Made by a program: the position numbers and the translations under genes. 64,000 nt of DNA from Chloroflexota bacterium (GTDB lineage Bacteria > Chloroflexota > Anaerolineae > Aggregatilineales > J027): positions 248,001-312,000 of the forward strand of contig QMIT01000010.1 in NCBI GenBank assembly GCA_024434115.1, in the 5' to 3' direction. Of the stretch, positions 19,810 to 31,352 are shown piece by piece (within the stretch, counting starts at the first letter, position 1; the number at the start of each line of letters is the position of its first letter). The notes below the pieces were generated by a model. That model saw only the letters and a list, made by a program, of their open reading frames with translations. It was not told the origin of the DNA and made no database searches.

Positions 19810-21453
19810 ATGGATTCGGAAATGATATTGAAGCGGCAAGTTGGGCTGATCTTATTGGTGGTGCTGGTACTGCTTGCGGCCTGTCAGCCGGAAAATTCGG
19901 GTGAGCGCGAAATTCGAGTGGCCTTGATTGCCGATGGCACACAGCGGGCCTTTGTGTTTGATCGGCCTTTGTCGGTTGAGCAGTTTTTGCGCCAAGCCAA
20001 TATCACGCTCAACCCGCTGGACGAAGTCACACCCTCCAAATTCACCCAAGTCACCGATGGCATGACGGTCACAGTGGTGCGTGTGGCGGAGACCGAAGAT
20101 TGCAGCAGCACCGAATCGCTGGCTTTTGATCAAATTGAACAGCCCAGCACTAATCTTGAACCCGGCGAGACGCGGATTTTGGAACGGGGCGAAAACGGCG
20201 AAGTCCAAATATGCTATACCATTATCATCGCCGATGGGGTCGAACGTGACCGCCGCGTAAAATCTCGCATTGTCATCAAAGAACCCAAAAATCAGATTGT
20301 CGCTGTCGGTCAGACTGATACGCTTGAACCTGTGGTGATTGATGGAACATTGGCTTATATTTCGAGTGGGCAGGCATGGATGGTGCGGGGCAACAGCGGC
20401 AATCCAATGCCCTTGACCACTGATAACAATTTAGATGGACGTGTCTTTGATTTATCGGTGGATGGTCGCCAACTCCTGTATACGCGCAAAACGGATGATC
20501 CGAGCGATACAGCTTTTTCTAACGAATTATGGGTCATTTTGGATACCAATAATCCTGTCCCTATTCCATTGGGCTATAACAATATTTTATCCGGGGGATG
20601 GATACCCGGTCAGCCGTATAACCTGTATTATTCGAGCGCCAATGCCGGGGGAGGTTTTCAGGGGTGGGTCGCCTATAACGATTTATGGGTCGTTCGGCTC
20701 AATCCACGTGATGGGGATACTTTAGACATTGATGAGGTCATCCCCGATAACGTCACAGGTGAATTTGCCTTTTGGGGGACACGTTTTGCATGGTCGCCGG
20801 ACGGTACAAAGGTCGCCTATGCCAAATCGAATGGGGTAGGATTGATAAATTTGGGCACAGGGGATGGGGATGGCGATTTTGGCCCATTCGCACTCAACTT
20901 CGCTTATTACAATACCGCGATTGTAAATGAATGGGTGTGGCAGCCCACTCTGTCGTGGTCGCAGGATGGGCAATGGGTGGTGACAACAGTGCATGGCCCA
21001 TCGTATAGCAGCGAAGCCCCTACCGACAGCATTATTTTTGATATAGGCGTTTTTAAAGCCGACGGATCGCTGGCCCTCCAAAGTGTGATTTCCAAGACAG
21101 GCATTTGGGCAAGTCCGGTCTATTCACCTGTTTCGGTTGGGCCGGATGGTCAAGCGCAGTTCAGCATTGCCTTTTTGCAAGCACGCGAACCCCTCAACAG
21201 CTATGGCACCGAGTACGATTTGATGATTGCAGATCGGGATGGTAGCAATCCACGCCGTGTGTTTCCGCCGCAAGGCTTGCAGGGGATTCGCCCGGTGAAC
21301 CTTGAAGATGCCATGCCGCTGTCTTGGAGTCCGTCGGGGCAAAAAATTGCGGTGTTGTATCAGAAAAATTTATGGATCGTAGATGTTGAGTCTGGCCTCC
21401 CCCGCCAAATTACGAATGATGCTCAGACCTCCACACCCCGCTGGACAAATTAG
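19810..21453 (+). CDS. lipoprotein with DUF348, G5 and TolB-like propeller domains
   Basis: 547 aa. A signal peptide ends in the lipobox 'LLAAC' (Cys about residue 20). Residues about 30-95 resemble the ubiquitin-like DUF348 of YabE/Rpf proteins ('IRVALIADGTQRAFVFDRPLSVEQFLRQANITL'), and about 125-170 resemble a G5 domain. A six-bladed TolB/WD40-like propeller fills the rest ('SVDGRQLLYTRK', 'FAWSPDGTKVAYAKSN', 'LSWSQDGQWVVTT', 'LSWSPSGQKIAVLYQ'). It is probably anchored to the outer face of the membrane and binds cell-wall glycan or protein. An alternative start at 19822 gives a more typical signal peptide. It abuts the next gene directly, suggesting an operon. Confidence 0.82.
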   Translation: MDSEMILKRQVGLILLVVLVLLAACQPENSGEREIRVALIADGTQRAFVFDRPLSVEQFLRQANITLNPLDEVTPSKFTQVTDGMTVTVVRVAETEDCSSTESLAFDQIEQPSTNLEPGETRILERGENGEVQICYTIIIADGVERDRRVKSRIVIKEPKNQIVAVGQTDTLEPVVIDGTLAYISSGQAWMVRGNSGNPMPLTTDNNLDGRVFDLSVDGRQLLYTRKTDDPSDTAFSNELWVILDTNNPVPIPLGYNNILSGGWIPGQPYNLYYSSANAGGGFQGWVAYNDLWVVRLNPRDGDTLDIDEVIPDNVTGEFAFWGTRFAWSPDGTKVAYAKSNGVGLINLGTGDGDGDFGPFALNFAYYNTAIVNEWVWQPTLSWSQDGQWVVTTVHGPSYSSEAPTDSIIFDIGVFKADGSLALQSVISKTGIWASPVYSPVSVGPDGQAQFSIAFLQAREPLNSYGTEYDLMIADRDGSNPRRVFPPQGLQGIRPVNLEDAMPLSWSPSGQKIAVLYQKNLWIVDVESGLPRQITNDAQTSTPRWTN

Positions 21454-24400
21454 ATGATGAATTCACCTGTGTTCCGCCGCTGGATTATTTTCCTGATCTG
21501 CTGCTTATTCCTGCTGGTCAGTATCGGCGCGATCTTAGACCGCCGTTCCGCTGAAGCCAAAGCGACACGGGGTTGGGAGCTTGCCACCGAAGTTCAAGCC
21601 ATGCCCTATCGCCAACCCATCGGCGGGGTCAATGTCGAATTGACGCAATATGCCCCCGACGAATTGGATACCCAGTTGCAGGCGATAGATGGATTGGGGT
21701 TTACATGGCTGCGTCAGACGATTTATTGGGAACGGGTCGAACCTGAACAAGGCACATTCGATTGGTCGGTCTATGACCCGATTGTGGATGCCGTCGCCCA
21801 ATACCCCAGCCTCAAATTAGTGCTGGTGTTGGATGGCACACCGCGTTGGGCACGTCACCGCGAAGCCCCTGACCATGCCTTTGCTCCACCTGCCAGTGTG
21901 GACGCCTTTGCCAATTTTGGGCGGGCGATTGCCGAACGGTACGGCGACAGGGTGGATTATTATCAAATCTGGGACGAGCCAAATATCCGCGACCATTGGG
22001 GCAGCCTCGACCCACGACCCGCACTCTATGTGGCGATGTTAAAAGCGGCCTATCTCGCCATTCATGAGGCGGATGGTCAGGCGAGGGTTATCGCTGCGGC
22101 CCTTGCGCCGAATGTCGAAGATGGCCCGGAAAATTTGAGCGACGTGTTGTATCTACGGGCGATGTACGATCTTGGCGGCAAAGATTTTTTTGATGCGGCG
22201 GCGGGCAAACCCTATGGCTACAACACCTCCCCGGATGACCGCACCACCGATGAGGCCACGCTGAATTTTTCGCGGCTGATTTTGCTGCGTGAAGAAATGG
22301 TCGCGCATGACGACGGCGCAAAACCACTCTGGGGCAGTAATTTTGGCTGGAATGCACTGCCTGCCGATTGGAGCGGCCCGCCTTCGATCTGGGGGCAGGT
22401 GTCGGCAGCAGACCAAATCGCCTATACCCGAGCTGCTTTTCGCCGGGCCGAACGCGAATGGGCATGGGTCGGTGGGTTGATTATCCAGCATTGGCAGCCG
22501 GATGCCCCTCCGGATGACCCGATTCAGGGGTTTGCGCTGGCTCCTCGATTAGCAGAATGGCAGGCCGCTGGATTGCCATTTGAAAAAGATGCCCTGCTGT
22601 CCGGTTTATATCCTGCCGTCAATCCTTTCACCAACTACGAAGGCGATTGGCAGTTTAGTGATTTGGGGGCGGACGCGGGAACCGTTGACCCGAACGACCC
22701 GAATGTGTACGACATCCAAAATTCGATTCGCGTAACCTTTCGTGGCACAGATTTTGCCATGTTGGTGCGGCGGGATGATTACGTGGCGTATCTGGCGATT
22801 ACGATTGATGGACAGAAAGCCAATAAATTACCCACCAACAAACAGGGGGAATCCTTCCTCATTTTGACCTCTCCTAGCCGAAAACCTAGCACTGATTTAA
22901 TCCCGGTTGCCAGTGGACTTGATGACGGGCTGCATGTTGCGGAAATTGTACATCGTCCATGGCAGGGCGATGATCGTTGGGCCATTGCGGGCTTCGCGGT
23001 TGCCAGCGCACCGGATACCTTACCTTATGAACGGGGGCAGATTATCGCCGCGATCTTTGGCCTATTGTCCGTTGTTGGCATGGTGGGGGCGGGCTATCGT
23101 TTGCCGTTCCGCCAAATCAAGATGCCTTCACGGGAGGCCCTGCAAAATATCGCCGATGTTGCGCTCACCCTGATCGTGTCGCTTATTTTTGTGGTCGGTG
23201 TTGTCCTCTCGTGGGGTGATATGGTCACAACCTTTTTACGGCGCGATACCCCGGCCTTGATTGTCAGTATCACCTCCATGAGCGTGGCCTATTATTCGCC
23301 GATTGTATGGGGCACATTGGCGGCATTGGCGGTATTTGCAGTGATCGTATTCAACCGTCCGCTGATGGGTCTCTTGGCAGTGTTGTTCTGGTCGGCGTTT
23401 TTTACGGCTACACTTGATGCTTATGTGCAACTCATCGCCGTCGTGGAAATCATGTTGGCGATTAGTGCCGCCGCTATTATCGGACGCGGATTATATGAAT
23501 GGGCCAAGACGCGCCGTTTGATGACCCCACCCCTAAATCCCCTCCCCAAACATGGAGAGGGGCCTTCAAAGCCGCAGTTTATATTCCTAAATTTGTGGAA
23601 TCGTTTGAGTACACTCGACATTGCGTTGATTGCCTTCTTCATTTTGGCAGTCATTTCGCTGTCATGGGCCGATTTGCGCCCGGAGGCCCTGCGCGAACTG
23701 CGGACGATGATTTTTGACCCATTAGTATTCTACCTGCTGCTGCGGGTGGCTCGCCTCCAAGAAAAAGACCTGTCTCTGTTGGCAGAAGTCATGATTTTAA
23801 TAGGGGCGGTGGTCGCGCTGGTTGGTTTGTACAATTACGTCACCGAAACCTATGTGGTGTTCACGCCAGAGGGGTCAAAGCGGTTAGTGGGGATTTATGG
23901 CTCACCTAACAGTGTTGCTCTGCAATTAGGGCGCTGCCTACCCTTTGCCTTCGCCTATGTGATTTTGCCAGTTGGCGCATGGCGACGTGTCTATGCAGGG
24001 GTCGGCGGTGCGATTATGCTGCTGGCGGTGGCTCTGACACAGAGCATCGGCGCGATTGCACTGGGTCTACCGGCTGCTTTCGCGGTCATTGTTTTGGGCT
24101 GGCAGGGGCGACGGGCATGGCTGCCATTAGGGGGTGTCGCTGTCGTCGGGACGCTTGGGCTTTTCCCGCTATCGAGAATATTTCCGCGACTTCGCCATCT
24201 TGGAGATTTTGATAATATACGTATCAACGTTTGGCGGAGTACGCTTGAATTGATTAAAGATCATCCAATCACAGGAGTAGGCCTTGATCAATTTTTGTAC
24301 GCCTATCGGGGGCGCTATATTTTGTCCGAAGCATGGGCCGACCCCGACCTCTCGCATCCGCATAACGTGGTCTTGGATTATTGGGTGCGTCTAGGGATTT

Positions 24401-24642
24401 TTGGGGTATTGATTGGCGTGTGGCTGCAAGTCGCGTTTTGGCGGACGGCATTGGCGGCCTATCGTCAAGTGCGGCATTCCAATCCGATGCTGCTGGCGAT
24501 TGTGTTGGGCGTGATGGGCAGTATGGCGGATTTCCTTGCACATGGCATAATTGACTCGGCCTATTTTGCCATCAATCTGAGTTTTATTTTTGTGCTGCTG
24601 CTGGCGGTGGTGCAGGGGGTTATGGCACAGTCTAGAAATTGA
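21454..24642 (+). CDS. glycoside hydrolase-like / O-antigen ligase (Wzy/WaaL) fusion membrane protein
   Basis: 1062 aa. One N-terminal span (10-27) leads to an extracytoplasmic clan-A (GH5/GH39-like) barrel at about 55-380: 'GFTWLRQTIYWERVEPEQGTFDW', acid/base 'IWDE175PN'. At the expected nucleophile site ('W.TEfGW' in relatives) it reads WGSN296FGW, Asn for Glu. A beta-rich part (about 390-520) is followed by about 12 membrane spans and the O-antigen ligase loop 'GVGLDQFLYAYRGRYILSEAWADPDLSHPHNVVLDYWVRLG'. The linker 'TPPLNPLPKHGEGPSK' (about 691-706) is the in-frame translation of a palindromic repeat. It overlaps the convergent TIR gene by 11 nt. It may bind glycan with the front half and polymerise or ligate it with the back half. 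Confidence 0.85.
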   Translation: MMNSPVFRRWIIFLICCLFLLVSIGAILDRRSAEAKATRGWELATEVQAMPYRQPIGGVNVELTQYAPDELDTQLQAIDGLGFTWLRQTIYWERVEPEQGTFDWSVYDPIVDAVAQYPSLKLVLVLDGTPRWARHREAPDHAFAPPASVDAFANFGRAIAERYGDRVDYYQIWDEPNIRDHWGSLDPRPALYVAMLKAAYLAIHEADGQARVIAAALAPNVEDGPENLSDVLYLRAMYDLGGKDFFDAAAGKPYGYNTSPDDRTTDEATLNFSRLILLREEMVAHDDGAKPLWGSNFGWNALPADWSGPPSIWGQVSAADQIAYTRAAFRRAEREWAWVGGLIIQHWQPDAPPDDPIQGFALAPRLAEWQAAGLPFEKDALLSGLYPAVNPFTNYEGDWQFSDLGADAGTVDPNDPNVYDIQNSIRVTFRGTDFAMLVRRDDYVAYLAITIDGQKANKLPTNKQGESFLILTSPSRKPSTDLIPVASGLDDGLHVAEIVHRPWQGDDRWAIAGFAVASAPDTLPYERGQIIAAIFGLLSVVGMVGAGYRLPFRQIKMPSREALQNIADVALTLIVSLIFVVGVVLSWGDMVTTFLRRDTPALIVSITSMSVAYYSPIVWGTLAALAVFAVIVFNRPLMGLLAVLFWSAFFTATLDAYVQLIAVVEIMLAISAAAIIGRGLYEWAKTRRLMTPPLNPLPKHGEGPSKPQFIFLNLWNRLSTLDIALIAFFILAVISLSWADLRPEALRELRTMIFDPLVFYLLLRVARLQEKDLSLLAEVMILIGAVVALVGLYNYVTETYVVFTPEGSKRLVGIYGSPNSVALQLGRCLPFAFAYVILPVGAWRRVYAGVGGAIMLLAVALTQSIGAIALGLPAAFAVIVLGWQGRRAWLPLGGVAVVGTLGLFPLSRIFPRLRHLGDFDNIRINVWRSTLELIKDHPITGVGLDQFLYAYRGRYILSEAWADPDLSHPHNVVLDYWVRLGIFGVLIGVWLQVAFWRTALAAYRQVRHSNPMLLAIVLGVMGSMADFLAHGIIDSAYFAINLSFIFVLLLAVVQGVMAQSRN
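23525..23570 (+). repeat. palindromic repeat copy R1, in frame inside a gene
   Basis: Core 23539-23562: CCCCTCCCCA - 4 nt - TGGAGAGGGG, a 10-bp arm with one mismatch. It is a member of the same family as the intergenic copies near 46.5, 47.3, 48.2 and 57.6 kb, but lies within the linker-coding part of the fusion gene and keeps its reading frame. Confidence 0.85.
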
Positions 24643-26257
24643 GGATTATCCGATACCCGCCGCCATCAAGTCGTAGGTTGGGGAAGATACCAAAACGATA
24701 GGTACAGCGCAGGGCCTCATCATTACTAACCCACCATGTCCCACCACGCATGGCACGCGGACGGTTGGTGGTGATGTCGAGGCCATCCGTTCCCCATTCG
24801 TTGAGACACCACTGCCAGATGTTGCCACACATATCCATTACCCCAAAGGGACTGGCCCCATCAGGAAATTGGGTGACCGGGGTTGGGCCAGTGCTCATGA
24901 AATTGCATCGCCCGACATCAAATTCATCACCCCAAGGGTATTTCAAAAAATAATCCCCCTGTGCAGCACGTTGCCACTGCTGTTCGGTGGGAAGCAGAAT
25001 ATTTTGGTTGGTTTTATGGCCCAGCCAATTGCAAAAAGCCATCGCGCTGTACCAGCTAACATTCGTGCGCGGCAGGTTATCCCCCGGAAAGGCTGTTTCT
25101 TCGGGGGACTGCTTGCGTTGGTACCAGTTACTCGCGTGTGGTGAATATTCCCACCACTGCGGGTTGCGATAGCCATCAGCGGCTTCCATAAAGACCTGAT
25201 ATTGGGCATTCGTAATCGGATAGCGGGCGATAGCAAAAGGGCGTACTTGAAATTTACCACCTGATGTGCCGCCATAGTGGGAAGCATCTTCCAAAAAAAC
25301 CGCGCCTTCGGGGATTTCGACCCATTCAAAAAGATCGCCAATCACGGAAGCGACTTCATGAGAATATTTACGGCTTGTTTTAGGTGGCGGGTCATGGGCA
25401 GCATATTTTTGGGCCAATAAATCGGGATCATAGCCGGATTCAATACGCCAAACAGATTTTAGAGCTTGTGCTATTTCTTCGGGGGGACGGCGCAATCGTA
25501 CCATGTAACGCACAAAGCTGTATTCATAGTCAGCCATTTCATGTCGTCGTCGTGCTTCTTCTTCGGCCCGCAAAATCTCCAGAATATCGGCTTCGATTTC
25601 ATCCAATTTAAAAAAATCCGGGATGACCGCACCTGACTCTCGAATCCGTGCGACCCAGCCCAGCGCTGTCGGCCAATCACTTTTTTCATAGGACTCAGAA
25701 AGGTGATCTGCTGCTGCCCAAATATCAAAGGAGTCACGGCGATGGGGCAAAATCACTTCTGGTTTTGGACTGGCAGGCATAATCAAAGAATTGCCTTGAT
25801 GTACTAGTTGAGTCTCAAGGCTGTCCATGATACGTCCAATATCTTCTAGGATGTCTCGACCATCACGCAGGGTGGCGACATTGCGACGGAAAATTGGGCG
25901 GAGGGCCGCTGGAAGTTCGTCGGATGGGGGGACGGCTGCACCTTTAATACAGATGGGGGCAATGACCTTGTTGTGTCTAAGTGCCTCCTCCAATTCTATG
26001 CGTACATAATCAGGCCGATCTGAATGCTCTTTCTCGCGCAGAAGCCGTAGCCAATTGTGCCCGATGACGGCAACCACAGCATCGCTTTCTCGAACTTTCT
26101 CGCGGATAAAGTCTTCAAAACGCGCGAATTCCGGGATGGTATCAAAATCCATAAACACGTTTTCGCGGCCATAACGAATCATAAACCATGTCCGCATATG
26201 CTGAACAAAGTCCGGATCATCGGCACGGCGATAATTGACGAAAAGTTTTAGCGGCAT
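24632..26257 (-). CDS. TIR domain protein with C-terminal FGE-sulfatase (SUMF1) domain
   Basis: 541 aa. Residues 1-150 form a TIR fold: 'KLFVNYRRADD' (strand A), 'VFMDFDTIPEFARFEDFI' and 'YVRIE88LEEAL', with Glu88 at the NADase catalytic position. A helical linker (about 170-290) leads to an FGE/C-type-lectin-like domain (300-541) with 'WVEIPEGAVFLED', 'YPITNAQYQVFMEA', 'PRTNVSWYSAMAFCNWLG', 'LPTEQQWQRAAQG' and 'DMCGNIWQWCLNEW'. Only one Cys remains at the C-terminal site ('ALRCTYR') where formylglycine-generating enzymes need two, so it is probably a ligand-binding or sensor module. Such fusions fit an immune or signalling protein that consumes NAD when triggered. It lies divergent from a macrodomain gene. 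Confidence 0.88.
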   Translation of the reverse strand: MPLKLFVNYRRADDPDFVQHMRTWFMIRYGRENVFMDFDTIPEFARFEDFIREKVRESDAVVAVIGHNWLRLLREKEHSDRPDYVRIELEEALRHNKVIAPICIKGAAVPPSDELPAALRPIFRRNVATLRDGRDILEDIGRIMDSLETQLVHQGNSLIMPASPKPEVILPHRRDSFDIWAAADHLSESYEKSDWPTALGWVARIRESGAVIPDFFKLDEIEADILEILRAEEEARRRHEMADYEYSFVRYMVRLRRPPEEIAQALKSVWRIESGYDPDLLAQKYAAHDPPPKTSRKYSHEVASVIGDLFEWVEIPEGAVFLEDASHYGGTSGGKFQVRPFAIARYPITNAQYQVFMEAADGYRNPQWWEYSPHASNWYQRKQSPEETAFPGDNLPRTNVSWYSAMAFCNWLGHKTNQNILLPTEQQWQRAAQGDYFLKYPWGDEFDVGRCNFMSTGPTPVTQFPDGASPFGVMDMCGNIWQWCLNEWGTDGLDITTNRPRAMRGGTWWVSNDEALRCTYRFGIFPNLRLDGGGYRIILNF

Positions 26258-26427: not shown

Positions 26428-27012
26428 ATGGAATTTGTCCTCAATAAATTACAAGTTCAATTGATGCAGGGCGACATCACCGAACTGGATACCGACGCCA
26501 TCACCAATGCCGCCAACAGTTATCTCATTTTGGGCGCAGGGGTGGCGGGGGCGATTGCACGCAAAGGTGGCCCATCTATCCAAGAGGAATGTTACGCCAT
26601 CGGGCACTGCGAGGTGGGCAAGGCAGCCATCACAGGCGGCGGCAAACTTAAAGCCAAATATGTGATTCACGCCGTCGGGCCGATGATGGGTGAAGGCGAT
26701 GAACACGCCAAACTTGCCAGCGCCTTTCGGTCAGTTTTGGAACTCGCCGAGGCCAATGAATTGCATTCTGTCGCCCTGCCCGCGATCTCTACCGGAATTT
26801 TTGGTTTCCCGGTGGCGGACTGTGCTGAGATTTTGGCAAAACAGATCATTGATTATTCGTTTGAAAAACGCGAATATCTTCAGCAGGTGGTGGTCTGTCT
26901 CTATGACAACCGTACCCATCAGATTTTTGAGAAAAAATTCATAACCGCGCTGGAGAATGTTGAGGGCGGCGGAAATGACAGCACCGTGCTGTTTCGAGAC
27001 GATGCTGACTAA
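26428..27012 (+). CDS. macrodomain (ADP-ribose-binding) protein
   Basis: 194 aa. It shows the macrodomain signatures 'LMQGDITELDTDAITNAANSYLILGAGVAGAI' (N27-A-A-N30 and the glycine-rich phosphate loop), 'VIHAVGP' and 'ALPAISTGIFGFPVADCAEIL'. Relatives bind or hydrolyse ADP-ribose esters and O-acetyl-ADP-ribose. It is transcribed away from the TIR-FGE gene with a 170-bp shared upstream region. A C-terminal tail of about 20 residues is acidic and low-complexity. Confidence 0.92.
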   Translation: MEFVLNKLQVQLMQGDITELDTDAITNAANSYLILGAGVAGAIARKGGPSIQEECYAIGHCEVGKAAITGGGKLKAKYVIHAVGPMMGEGDEHAKLASAFRSVLELAEANELHSVALPAISTGIFGFPVADCAEILAKQIIDYSFEKREYLQQVVVCLYDNRTHQIFEKKFITALENVEGGGNDSTVLFRDDAD

Positions 27013-27141
27013 AATGTTATGAACAAGGCACTTAAGTACCTTGTTTGAGAGGTGTATTTAAGCACGGTGTTTTGTGGTACACTTCCACGCCGGATTTTTC
27101 TCTCATGTTTTCATTCATTACCAATTAAAAGGGGCGTCAAA

Positions 27142-28092
27142 TTGCGCGTACTCATTACAGGCGGGGCTGGCTTCCTCGGCTCCCATCTCTGTGACCGTTT
27201 TTTAAAAGAGGGTTATGAAGTTGTCGCGCTGGATAACTTTATCACGGGTAGCATAGACAATATCGCCCACCTTGCAGGCAACCCGAAATTTAAATTTATC
27301 CGGCACGATGTCTCGAATTACATCTTTGTGGATGGCCCGATTGACGCGGTGCTGCATTTCGCCTCACCCGCCAGCCCACCCGGTTATTTAAAATATCCCA
27401 TTCAGACCCTGAAAGTCGGAGCATTGGGGACGCATAATGCCCTCGGTGTGGCAAAGGCCAAAGGCGCGCGCTTTTTGTTGGCCTCAACTTCAGAAATCTA
27501 TGGCGACCCGCTGGTTCATCCCCAAACGGAAGATTACAATGGCAATGTTGACCCGATTGGCCCACGCGGGGTCTATGACGAAGCCAAGCGTTTTGCCGAA
27601 GCCCTAACGATGGCCTATCACAACGAACACGGGGTCAGAACCCGCATCGTGCGTATCTTTAATACCTATGGCCCTCGTATGTCATTGGATGATGGTCGAG
27701 TTGTGCCTAATTTTATAGCACAGGCCCTGAACGGCGAACCCTTGACGGTTTATGGTGAAGGCACACAGACCCGCAGTTTCTGCTTCTATTCCGATTTGAT
27801 TGAGGGACTCTATCGCCTATTGAACAGTGACTATCACATGCCCGTCAACATCGGCAACCCCTACACCGAAATGACCATGCTGGAACTGGCTGAATTGGTG
27901 AATCGCATTAGCGGCAGCAAGGGTGGTATCGTCATCAAGAAAGAGATGCGCATTGCAGGCGACCCACAAGTACGGCAACCCGACATCACCCGTGCGCGTG
28001 AGGTGCTAGGTTGGGAACCAAAGGTCAAGTTTGAAGAGGGCCTGCAAGAAACCTTCGCCTTTTTCCAAAAGAAAGTTCATGCGAACCGCTAA
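27142..28092 (+). CDS. NAD-dependent sugar epimerase, UDP-glucuronate decarboxylase type
   Basis: 316 aa extended SDR: '[20 protein letters not shown]', '[23 protein letters not shown]' (typical of UXS), '[12 protein letters not shown]', the catalytic Y-x3-K in '[13 protein letters not shown]', and '[10 protein letters not shown]'. It would make UDP-xylose from UDP-glucuronate for surface glycans. TTG 27142 is chosen as start because AAGGGG sits about 7 nt upstream and the Rossmann strand begins at once; an upstream ATG (27052) would add 30 residues of non-homologous sequence. The stop overlaps the next gene by 14 nt. Confidence 0.9.
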
Positions 28093-29573: not shown

Positions 29574-30197
29574 TTGTCTACCGCAGTTAATACTCATCCA
29601 GCGGAGGAAGTCAAAATTTCTCGCCGAATTCATTCCCCCATTGACCCGTTCATCGTATTTGTTTCGCGGCGTTTTGGCCCCAAAGCCAAAGAAGTGGAAC
29701 GTTTTTTGAAATTTGCCATTGTCGGTACGATTGGGGCAGTGGTGGATTTTGGGACGCTCAATCTTTTGCAACACACCCTACTTCATCCCGACGGCCCGAA
29801 CGAACAATTGCATGTCGCAATGGCATCAGGGATTGCATTTACGGCGGCGGTTGCCAGCAATTTCTTTTGGAATCGCTATTGGACTTATCCCGATTCACGT
29901 TCGCGGCATGTTGGATTGCAGTTGGCCCAGTTTTTCTTTATCAACACCGTCGCTGTCATTGCCCGCTTGATTTTCGTCAGCCTTGCCTATTCACCATTGG
30001 GCGAATTTGCCGAGCATTTATTAGGCAATTCCAATGTGGAAACGACAGTTGCGAACCGACTAGGGACAAATTTGGCTCAAGCGATTGCCGTTGCGGTGGC
30101 GATGTTTTGGAACTTCTTTATGAACCGCTATTGGACATACAACGACGTAGACAAACATCATCACAAACCCGCATCTGATTCACTTGCGGCTGAGTAA
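29574..30197 (+). CDS. GtrA family membrane protein
   Basis: 207 aa. After a 45-residue cytoplasmic N-terminus come four membrane spans with the GtrA signatures 'FLKFAIVGTIGAVVDFGTLNLL', 'VASNFFWNRYWTYPD' and the repeated 'MFWNFFMNRYWTYND'. GtrA proteins are thought to flip polyprenyl-linked sugars. Start is TTG 29574; gap to the previous gene 10 nt. Confidence 0.92.
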   Translation: MSTAVNTHPAEEVKISRRIHSPIDPFIVFVSRRFGPKAKEVERFLKFAIVGTIGAVVDFGTLNLLQHTLLHPDGPNEQLHVAMASGIAFTAAVASNFFWNRYWTYPDSRSRHVGLQLAQFFFINTVAVIARLIFVSLAYSPLGEFAEHLLGNSNVETTVANRLGTNLAQAIAVAVAMFWNFFMNRYWTYNDVDKHHHKPASDSLAAE

Positions 30198-31352
30198 ATG
30201 CTCAGTGACCGACCCATTGCCATTGACTATACCGCTGCCTATGAACAAGGGGCGGGTATTGGTCGGTTGGTACGTGATCTTATTGGGGGCTTGGCGGCTC
30301 TAGATCGTCAAACCCCCTATCAATTGTTTGTTGCCGGGGCGGAAAAATCCAAACTCCCTCCTGTCCCCGGCCCGAATTTCACATGGAAACCCACCCGTAT
30401 TACCCCGCTGTGGTTTGCCCGATTGTGGCATCGTGCCCAAGTGCCATTGGTCGTAGAATCTTTTGTTGGCCCGGTGGCGCTGTTCCATGCGACGGATTTT
30501 ACGCTGCCGCCAACCCTGCCGAGCACCAAAACGATTTTGACGGTGCATGACCTGTCATTTGTGCGTACCCCGGAAACCGCGCCGCCTGTGCTCAAAATTT
30601 ATTTGGATAAGGTCGTGCCGCGTTCGGTGCGTCGTGCCGATCATGTGATTGCTGATTCCCAAGCGACCAAAGATGATTTAGTTGAACTGTATGGCACACC
30701 ACCGGATAAAATTTCGGTGGTACTCAGTGGGGTCAGTCCGCGCTATGTGCCGATTGTTGACCCGACCCAACTCAACGCCGTGCGCCAACGCTATCACATC
30801 CCCGAAGGCCGCCCCTATATTTTTTCGATTGGCACGGTTCAGCCGCGCAAAAACTATGGCCGCCTGATGGAAGCACTAGCGATGCTTGGGCCTGCTTTTG
30901 AGGATGTGATTTTGGTGATCGCGGGAGCGAAGGGCTGGCTGGATAGCCCCATTTTCGAGACGGTTAAACGCCTGGGCCTTGAAGATCGGGTGTTTTTTAC
31001 TGGATTTGTGGATGATGCCGATGTGCCTGCCTTATACAGCGGGGCGACGGTGACGGCCTATCCCTCGCTCTATGAGGGGTTCGGTTTCCCAGTAGCTGAG
31101 TCTATGGCGTGTGGCACTCCTGTCGTGACATCAACGGTGTCGTCTATGCCGGAGGTGGCCGGAGATGCCGCGTTGTTGGTTGACCCGTATAATAGTGAAG
31201 CAATTGCTGATGCGCTGCGCCGTTTGTTGGATGATGTTGACCTCCATAAACGCCTAAAACTGGCCGGATTGGAACAAGCGCAGCAGTTTACATGGGAAAA
31301 ATCCGCCCAAACATTGCAGGCGATTTATCAGAAAGTGCTTAACCATGCCTAA
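30198..31352 (+). CDS. GT4-family glycosyltransferase
   Basis: 384 aa GT-B enzyme. It has N-terminal 'GAGIGRLVRDLIGGLA', 'LTVHDLSFVRTPETAP', 'HVIADSQATKDDLVELYG', the acceptor/donor hinge 'PYIFSIGTVQPRKNYGRLMEAL' and the EX7E motif 'PSLYEGFGFPVAESMACGTPVVTS'. It resembles mannosyl- and rhamnosyltransferases of surface polysaccharide. It begins directly after the gtrA stop and overlaps the next gene by 8 nt. Confidence 0.92.
   Translation: MLSDRPIAIDYTAAYEQGAGIGRLVRDLIGGLAALDRQTPYQLFVAGAEKSKLPPVPGPNFTWKPTRITPLWFARLWHRAQVPLVVESFVGPVALFHATDFTLPPTLPSTKTILTVHDLSFVRTPETAPPVLKIYLDKVVPRSVRRADHVIADSQATKDDLVELYGTPPDKISVVLSGVSPRYVPIVDPTQLNAVRQRYHIPEGRPYIFSIGTVQPRKNYGRLMEALAMLGPAFEDVILVIAGAKGWLDSPIFETVKRLGLEDRVFFTGFVDDADVPALYSGATVTAYPSLYEGFGFPVAESMACGTPVVTSTVSSMPEVAGDAALLVDPYNSEAIADALRRLLDDVDLHKRLKLAGLEQAQQFTWEKSAQTLQAIYQKVLNHA

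Follow-up and report, generated by a model that had tools for sequence, protein, structure and literature searches.

It is not obvious why a protein whose membrane half is of the O-antigen ligase type should carry at its front the barrel of a glycoside hydrolase, and less obvious still why that barrel should have lost its catalytic nucleophile. The gene that raises this question lies in what we call the window, the whole 64,000-nucleotide stretch of Chloroflexota DNA that was analyzed (contig QMIT01000010.1). A related puzzle has been noted before, in that the reason for the presence of a glycoside hydrolase in polysaccharide-synthesis clusters is stated to be unexplained (PMC9075953). The part of the literature that our search covered holds no description of a barrel–ligase fusion.

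The fusion gene is a single frame, and its ends, its length of 1062 residues, the placement of E175 within IWDEPN and the AAT codon of N296 are all exactly as a first-pass annotation had given them (Table 1). Its account of the layout needs revision. Where about 12 membrane spans had been counted, hydropathy gives 15 and the AlphaFold2 (AF2) model one extra helix, or about 15–16 including the N-terminal anchor. A β-sandwich missing from the earlier layout sits between the barrel and the membrane part, with a weak match to CE2_N that falls below cut-off. The full-length AF2 model, built with 62 aligned sequences, has a mean pLDDT of 86.5. Judging from the charged short loops, the barrel and the long loop bearing R923 and H970 are predicted to lie on the same outer (extracytoplasmic) side. 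The linker before the ligase core also contains a short palindromic insert (23515–23575; CCCCTCCCCA/TGGAGAGGGG, read in frame as PPLNPLPKHGEGP), which is absent from the two closest relatives of the gene and probably arose when a small repeat element inserted there.

Table 1. Features of the fusion gene and its neighbors (window coordinates; counts refer to 80 related loci)
Feature	Position	Strand	Remarks
G5/DUF348 + β-propeller protein	19810..21453	+	directly upstream in 71/80 loci
Whole fusion gene, 1062 aa: anchor + PslG-like barrel + β-sandwich + O-antigen-ligase-type membrane module	21454..24642	+	
N-terminal membrane anchor, residues 5–38	21466..21567	+	AF2 helix 5–38; hydropathy peak 10–28
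PslG-like (β/α)8 barrel, residues 48–378	21595..22587	+	pLDDT 93.4, pTM 0.93; Foldseek match to PslG
D174–E175	21973..21978	+	D174 replaces clan-A Asn (PslG N164); E175 is the acid/base position (PslG E165)
K252, end of strand 6, coupled to D174	22207..22209	+	N/M/H/Q/A in relatives with intact pair
N296 (AAT), nucleophile position (PslG E276)	22339..22341	+	
β-sandwich, residues 384–517, between barrel and membrane part	22603..23004	+	strands of AF2 model
Membrane module, O-antigen-ligase type, residues 523–1061	23020..24636	+	
Wzy_C match, residues 853–987	24010..24414	+	Pfam PF04932, E 1.8e-18
R923, aligned with ligase R265 (diphosphate binding), invariant	24220..24222	+	role per PMC10920833
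H970, aligned with ligase H313 (proposed acceptor activation), invariant	24361..24363	+	role per PMC10920833
Macro-domain protein	26428..27012	+	35/80 loci
NAD-dependent nucleotide-sugar epimerase/dehydratase	27052..28092	+	55/80 loci
Second Wzy_C protein, 510 aa	28031..29563	+	56/80 loci
GtrA-type membrane protein	29574..30197	+	46/80 loci
GT4 glycosyltransferase	30198..31352	+	44/80 loci

The locus is a glycan-assembly locus, and its genes recur to differing extents in related loci (Table 1). Convergent with the fusion gene, and overlapping its end by 11 bases, is a reverse-strand gene (24632–26257) for a protein with TIR and FGE-sulfatase domains, which occupies this spot in only 2 of 80 related loci.

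The assignment of the C-terminal half to the Wzy/WaaL type holds up well. It matches O-antigen ligase by profile (E 2.5e-6), and Wzy_C, which scores 67.2 bits against a curated cut-off of 31.7, is the sole match in a Pfam search of the 1062-residue protein; the barrel goes unnamed by both Pfam and NCBIfam. R923 and H970, which align with known ligase residues, are invariant in 148 of 148 family sequences, and a His rather than Asp or Glu at the place of H313 is the ligase-type choice (PMC10920833). The second diphosphate-binding arginine of the ligase, R191, is Ile865 here and R, K, V, A or I across the family, so that ligase activity itself is not certain. Nor can lipid A be assumed as the acceptor, because Chloroflexota have been reported to lack lipopolysaccharide genes (PMC13319060).

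For the barrel, PslG is the best match in the PDB by sequence (phmmer E 4e-14; profile search E 1e-26) and by fold (Foldseek E 1.3e-21, TM 0.75 over the barrel), with GH39 enzymes ranked next; the Pfam GH39 model does not match the window protein. The barrel-only model superposes on PslG with an rmsd of 4.5, and the full-length model superposes poorly (rmsd 13), probably because of domain orientation. In the phmmer alignment, E165 and E276 of PslG stand opposite E175 and N296. These are the acid/base and the nucleophile of PslG, and E276 has been seen covalently bound to an inhibitor (PMC11912335). The predicted structure agrees with the alignment, as the AF2 model has strand 4 stopping just ahead of D174–E175, strand 6 just ahead of K252, and N296 at the C-terminal end of strand 7 (residues 292–297), a strand with no Glu elsewhere that could serve as an alternative nucleophile. 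Thus, N296 occupies the nucleophile site, as had been proposed. The accompanying view that the clan-A signature is otherwise kept is correct for the acid/base E175 and not for the residue before it, an Asn that is now Asp174 (WNEPN to WDEPN). Because the PslG counterpart of D174, N164, contacts the −1 sugar (PMC11912335), two residues of the −1 subsite have been replaced in the fusion barrel.

Asn itself is not fixed at position 296, contrary to expectation. Across a 158-member clade, the site is N in 49, H in 44 and E in 22, with A, S, Q and others, including D and Y, making up the rest, so that 136 members have a residue other than Glu. At least one catalytic Glu has been lost in 141 of the 158; Glu175 is retained in 142, both catalytic Glu persist in 17, some of which may thus remain active, and the canonical trio N174, E175 and E296 is found in none. 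Outside the clade, all 29 relatives have E175 and E296. Within the window's order, D174 and E175 are invariant among 50 orthologues, as is K252 in the barrel alignments (50/50), and site 296 is H in 21, N in 20, E in 2 and other residues in the remainder. Class-wide, four site types are seen: WDEPN with non-Glu296, WDQPN with Glu296, WHNPN with His296, and WDEPN with Glu296. Positions 174 and 252 vary together in the clade (D–K 130, H–Q 13, N–N 15), which suggests that these residues touch. Other residues of the old pocket at the strand ends (R87, Q88, W92, N177, W182, Y254, W299 and W313) are nearly invariant.

On a barrel tree rooted with the canonical, intact paralogues of the window's own genome, parsimony counts 44 changes at 296, 7 at 174 and 6 at 175. 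Within the clade, the median column has 35 changes and site 296 has more, so a position that was formerly invariant now varies as any ordinary one does; the tree also implies a few returns of Glu there, a point against a disabled barrel. Some lineages keep Glu296 and have lost the acid/base Glu, and others have lost both. Loss that recurs in such different forms favors a barrel that no longer catalyzes and speaks against transglycosylation through whichever acid/base is left. The window's genome (G000) also encodes, at loci L002–L007, several unfused paralogues of the barrel in which both catalytic Glu are present, the one in L002 adjoining a PMT-like membrane protein.

The fusion occurs in about 50 of the 61 genomes from the window's order. 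It is not strictly universal, since G004, a genome of the same genus with 96% completeness, has no match to it. A class-wide search of 60 families found the fusion in many, and three families are mostly or wholly without any match. Fusion frames fetched and read from about 33 families of the class Anaerolineae keep a full-length barrel, so the fusion is far from peculiar to this assembly, and its presence across order and class rules out an assembly accident. Individual loci vary: inside the order, L061 has the fusion split into two overlapping frames of 534 and 562 residues, with barrel and ligase separate; in another family, the L181 genome carries two fusion genes in tandem; and the match in L016 contains one in-frame TGA.

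Three arrangements appear outside the class in the phylum-wide search and fetched loci (other phyla were searched with clade-specific patterns only). Barrel and ligase can be encoded by two neighboring genes, the barrel having its catalytic pair intact (e.g. L218–L224, L227, L230), they can be fused with that pair intact (L226, L228, L231–L233), or an intact barrel gene can lie directly upstream of a fused gene of the D174/K252 type (L225, L229, L235). Together, these arrangements support the view that the two modules already worked as partners before the barrel lost its catalysis. In the ligase tree, halves from fused and unfused proteins are intermixed, which indicates fusion or fission more than once. 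We also considered that fusion and inactivation were simultaneous; this is not upheld, because intact fusions exist and fused and unfused halves intermix.

What, then, does the barrel do? That it is a functionless, decaying remnant is hardly tenable. The 44 changes at 296 could be read in this way, as could the L067 genome, whose divergent homologue of 1022 residues has a barrel without the WDEPN stretch, but fusions in some 33 families keep the barrel at full length. Moreover, dN/dS among close relatives (Nei–Gojobori) is 0.08–0.11 for the barrel and 0.07–0.11 for the ligase part; synonymous sites are near saturation in the more distant pairs, and the closest pair, alone fully reliable, gives 0.111 and 0.105. 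With a value near 0.1, no higher than in the ligase half, the barrel is under purifying selection and is not decaying. Retaining glycosidases whose nucleophile has been mutated can transglycosylate when given activated donors, and with the acid/base Glu retained in so many clade members, the barrel might be imagined to work slowly as a retaining glycosidase or transglycosylase, with Asn/His296 or an external nucleophile standing in for Glu. We regard this as very unlikely, as the −1 Asn is also gone and there are lineages that lost the acid/base instead, or along with the nucleophile.

A more serious case for catalysis comes from the window's order, where the invariance of D174, E175 and K252 weighs against a purely binding role and could mean unrecognized chemistry. 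These residues might form a rebuilt center that acts on 2-acetamido sugars by a GH20-type, substrate-assisted mechanism with no enzyme nucleophile, which would allow the free variation seen at 296. GH20-type enzymes belong to a different clan, and other fusion proteins show HN/Q (WHNPN), HQ/Q or DQ/K in place of this center, which is thus not kept across the class; we consider such an enzyme improbable. A purely structural or docking role, in which the barrel would hold, for example, the propeller protein or the second Wzy_C protein and its pocket would contain no glycan, is somewhat easier to reconcile with the data, though still unlikely. It would account for catalytic residues being lost in several ways and for the G5/propeller gene lying directly upstream in 71 of 80 loci, but docking does not obviously require that the residues of the old pocket be nearly invariant.

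The explanation that we favor, and think probable, is that a surface-glycan ligase here contains, within its own chain, a pseudo-glycosidase that came from a PslG-like partner and binds glycan on the ligase's behalf. Most likely, from the pattern of residues kept and lost, the barrel grips a sugar chain or an acceptor without cutting it, and the original suggestion that it "holds or measures" glycan for the ligase would be apt. The barrel descends from a PslG-like retaining endoglycosidase that worked next to a ligase, as the neighbors and fusions with an intact pair outside the class show. In the Anaerolineae lineage, the −1 subsite was rebuilt once, with the change of Asn174 to Asp coupled with Lys252, and repeated loss of one or both catalytic residues, nucleophile and acid/base, followed. 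By homology, the ligase half, with its main active-site residues kept, would move a lipid-diphosphate-linked glycan to an acceptor, and the barrel, on the same side as the catalytic loop, may hold the chain or the acceptor such that the ligase acts on the right, or a long-enough, chain. A more specific form of this glycan-binding model, which we put forward only tentatively, is that the lipid-linked glycan is threaded through the barrel or clamped by it, so that the barrel serves a class-wide ligase as a gate on the length or identity of its own donor chain. If so, a polysaccharide-processing enzyme has been turned into a measuring device, and nature has provided a demonstration that a synthesis-locus hydrolase has a role beyond hydrolysis.

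In general, the PslG hydrolase fold here forms part of one protein with a ligase, and the domain has been retained through repeated losses of its catalytic function. The cutting role is therefore separable from any binding or scaffolding role, and natural versions of both kinds, intact and disabled, exist for comparison. The analysis also marks a widespread, uncharacterized envelope protein in the class Anaerolineae, whose envelope is poorly understood.

Three known systems offer analogies, none of them exact. The fusion protein shares with the WaaL/GT121 O-antigen ligase (PDB 7tpg, 7tpj) the aligned R265 and H313, but it lacks R191 and carries a barrel. WadA, a bimodular GT121 ligase of Brucella and relatives, likewise couples an O-antigen-ligase module to a further carbohydrate-active domain (PMC10920833); its added domain is a GT25 glycosyltransferase, whereas that of the fusion protein is a disabled glycosidase. 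For the barrel, the nearest solved structure is that of PslG, the GH39-type endoglycosidase of the Psl locus of Pseudomonas aeruginosa (PDB 5bx9, 4zn2, 9g17). The barrel fold is common to both, and the match continues into the C-terminal β-sandwich; PslG, too, is membrane-associated and coded with polysaccharide genes, and it belongs to the inner-membrane synthesis complex (PMC6813494). PslG is active, however, whereas the fusion barrel has both the nucleophile and the −1 Asn replaced and is joined to a ligase. Normal Psl production requires the hydrolytic activity of PslG (PMC6813494, PMC9075953), and in P. aeruginosa production of Psl is not rescued by the E165Q/E276Q double mutant (PMC6813494). 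Cutting thus matters for PslG in that organism, and in this respect Anaerolineae must differ.
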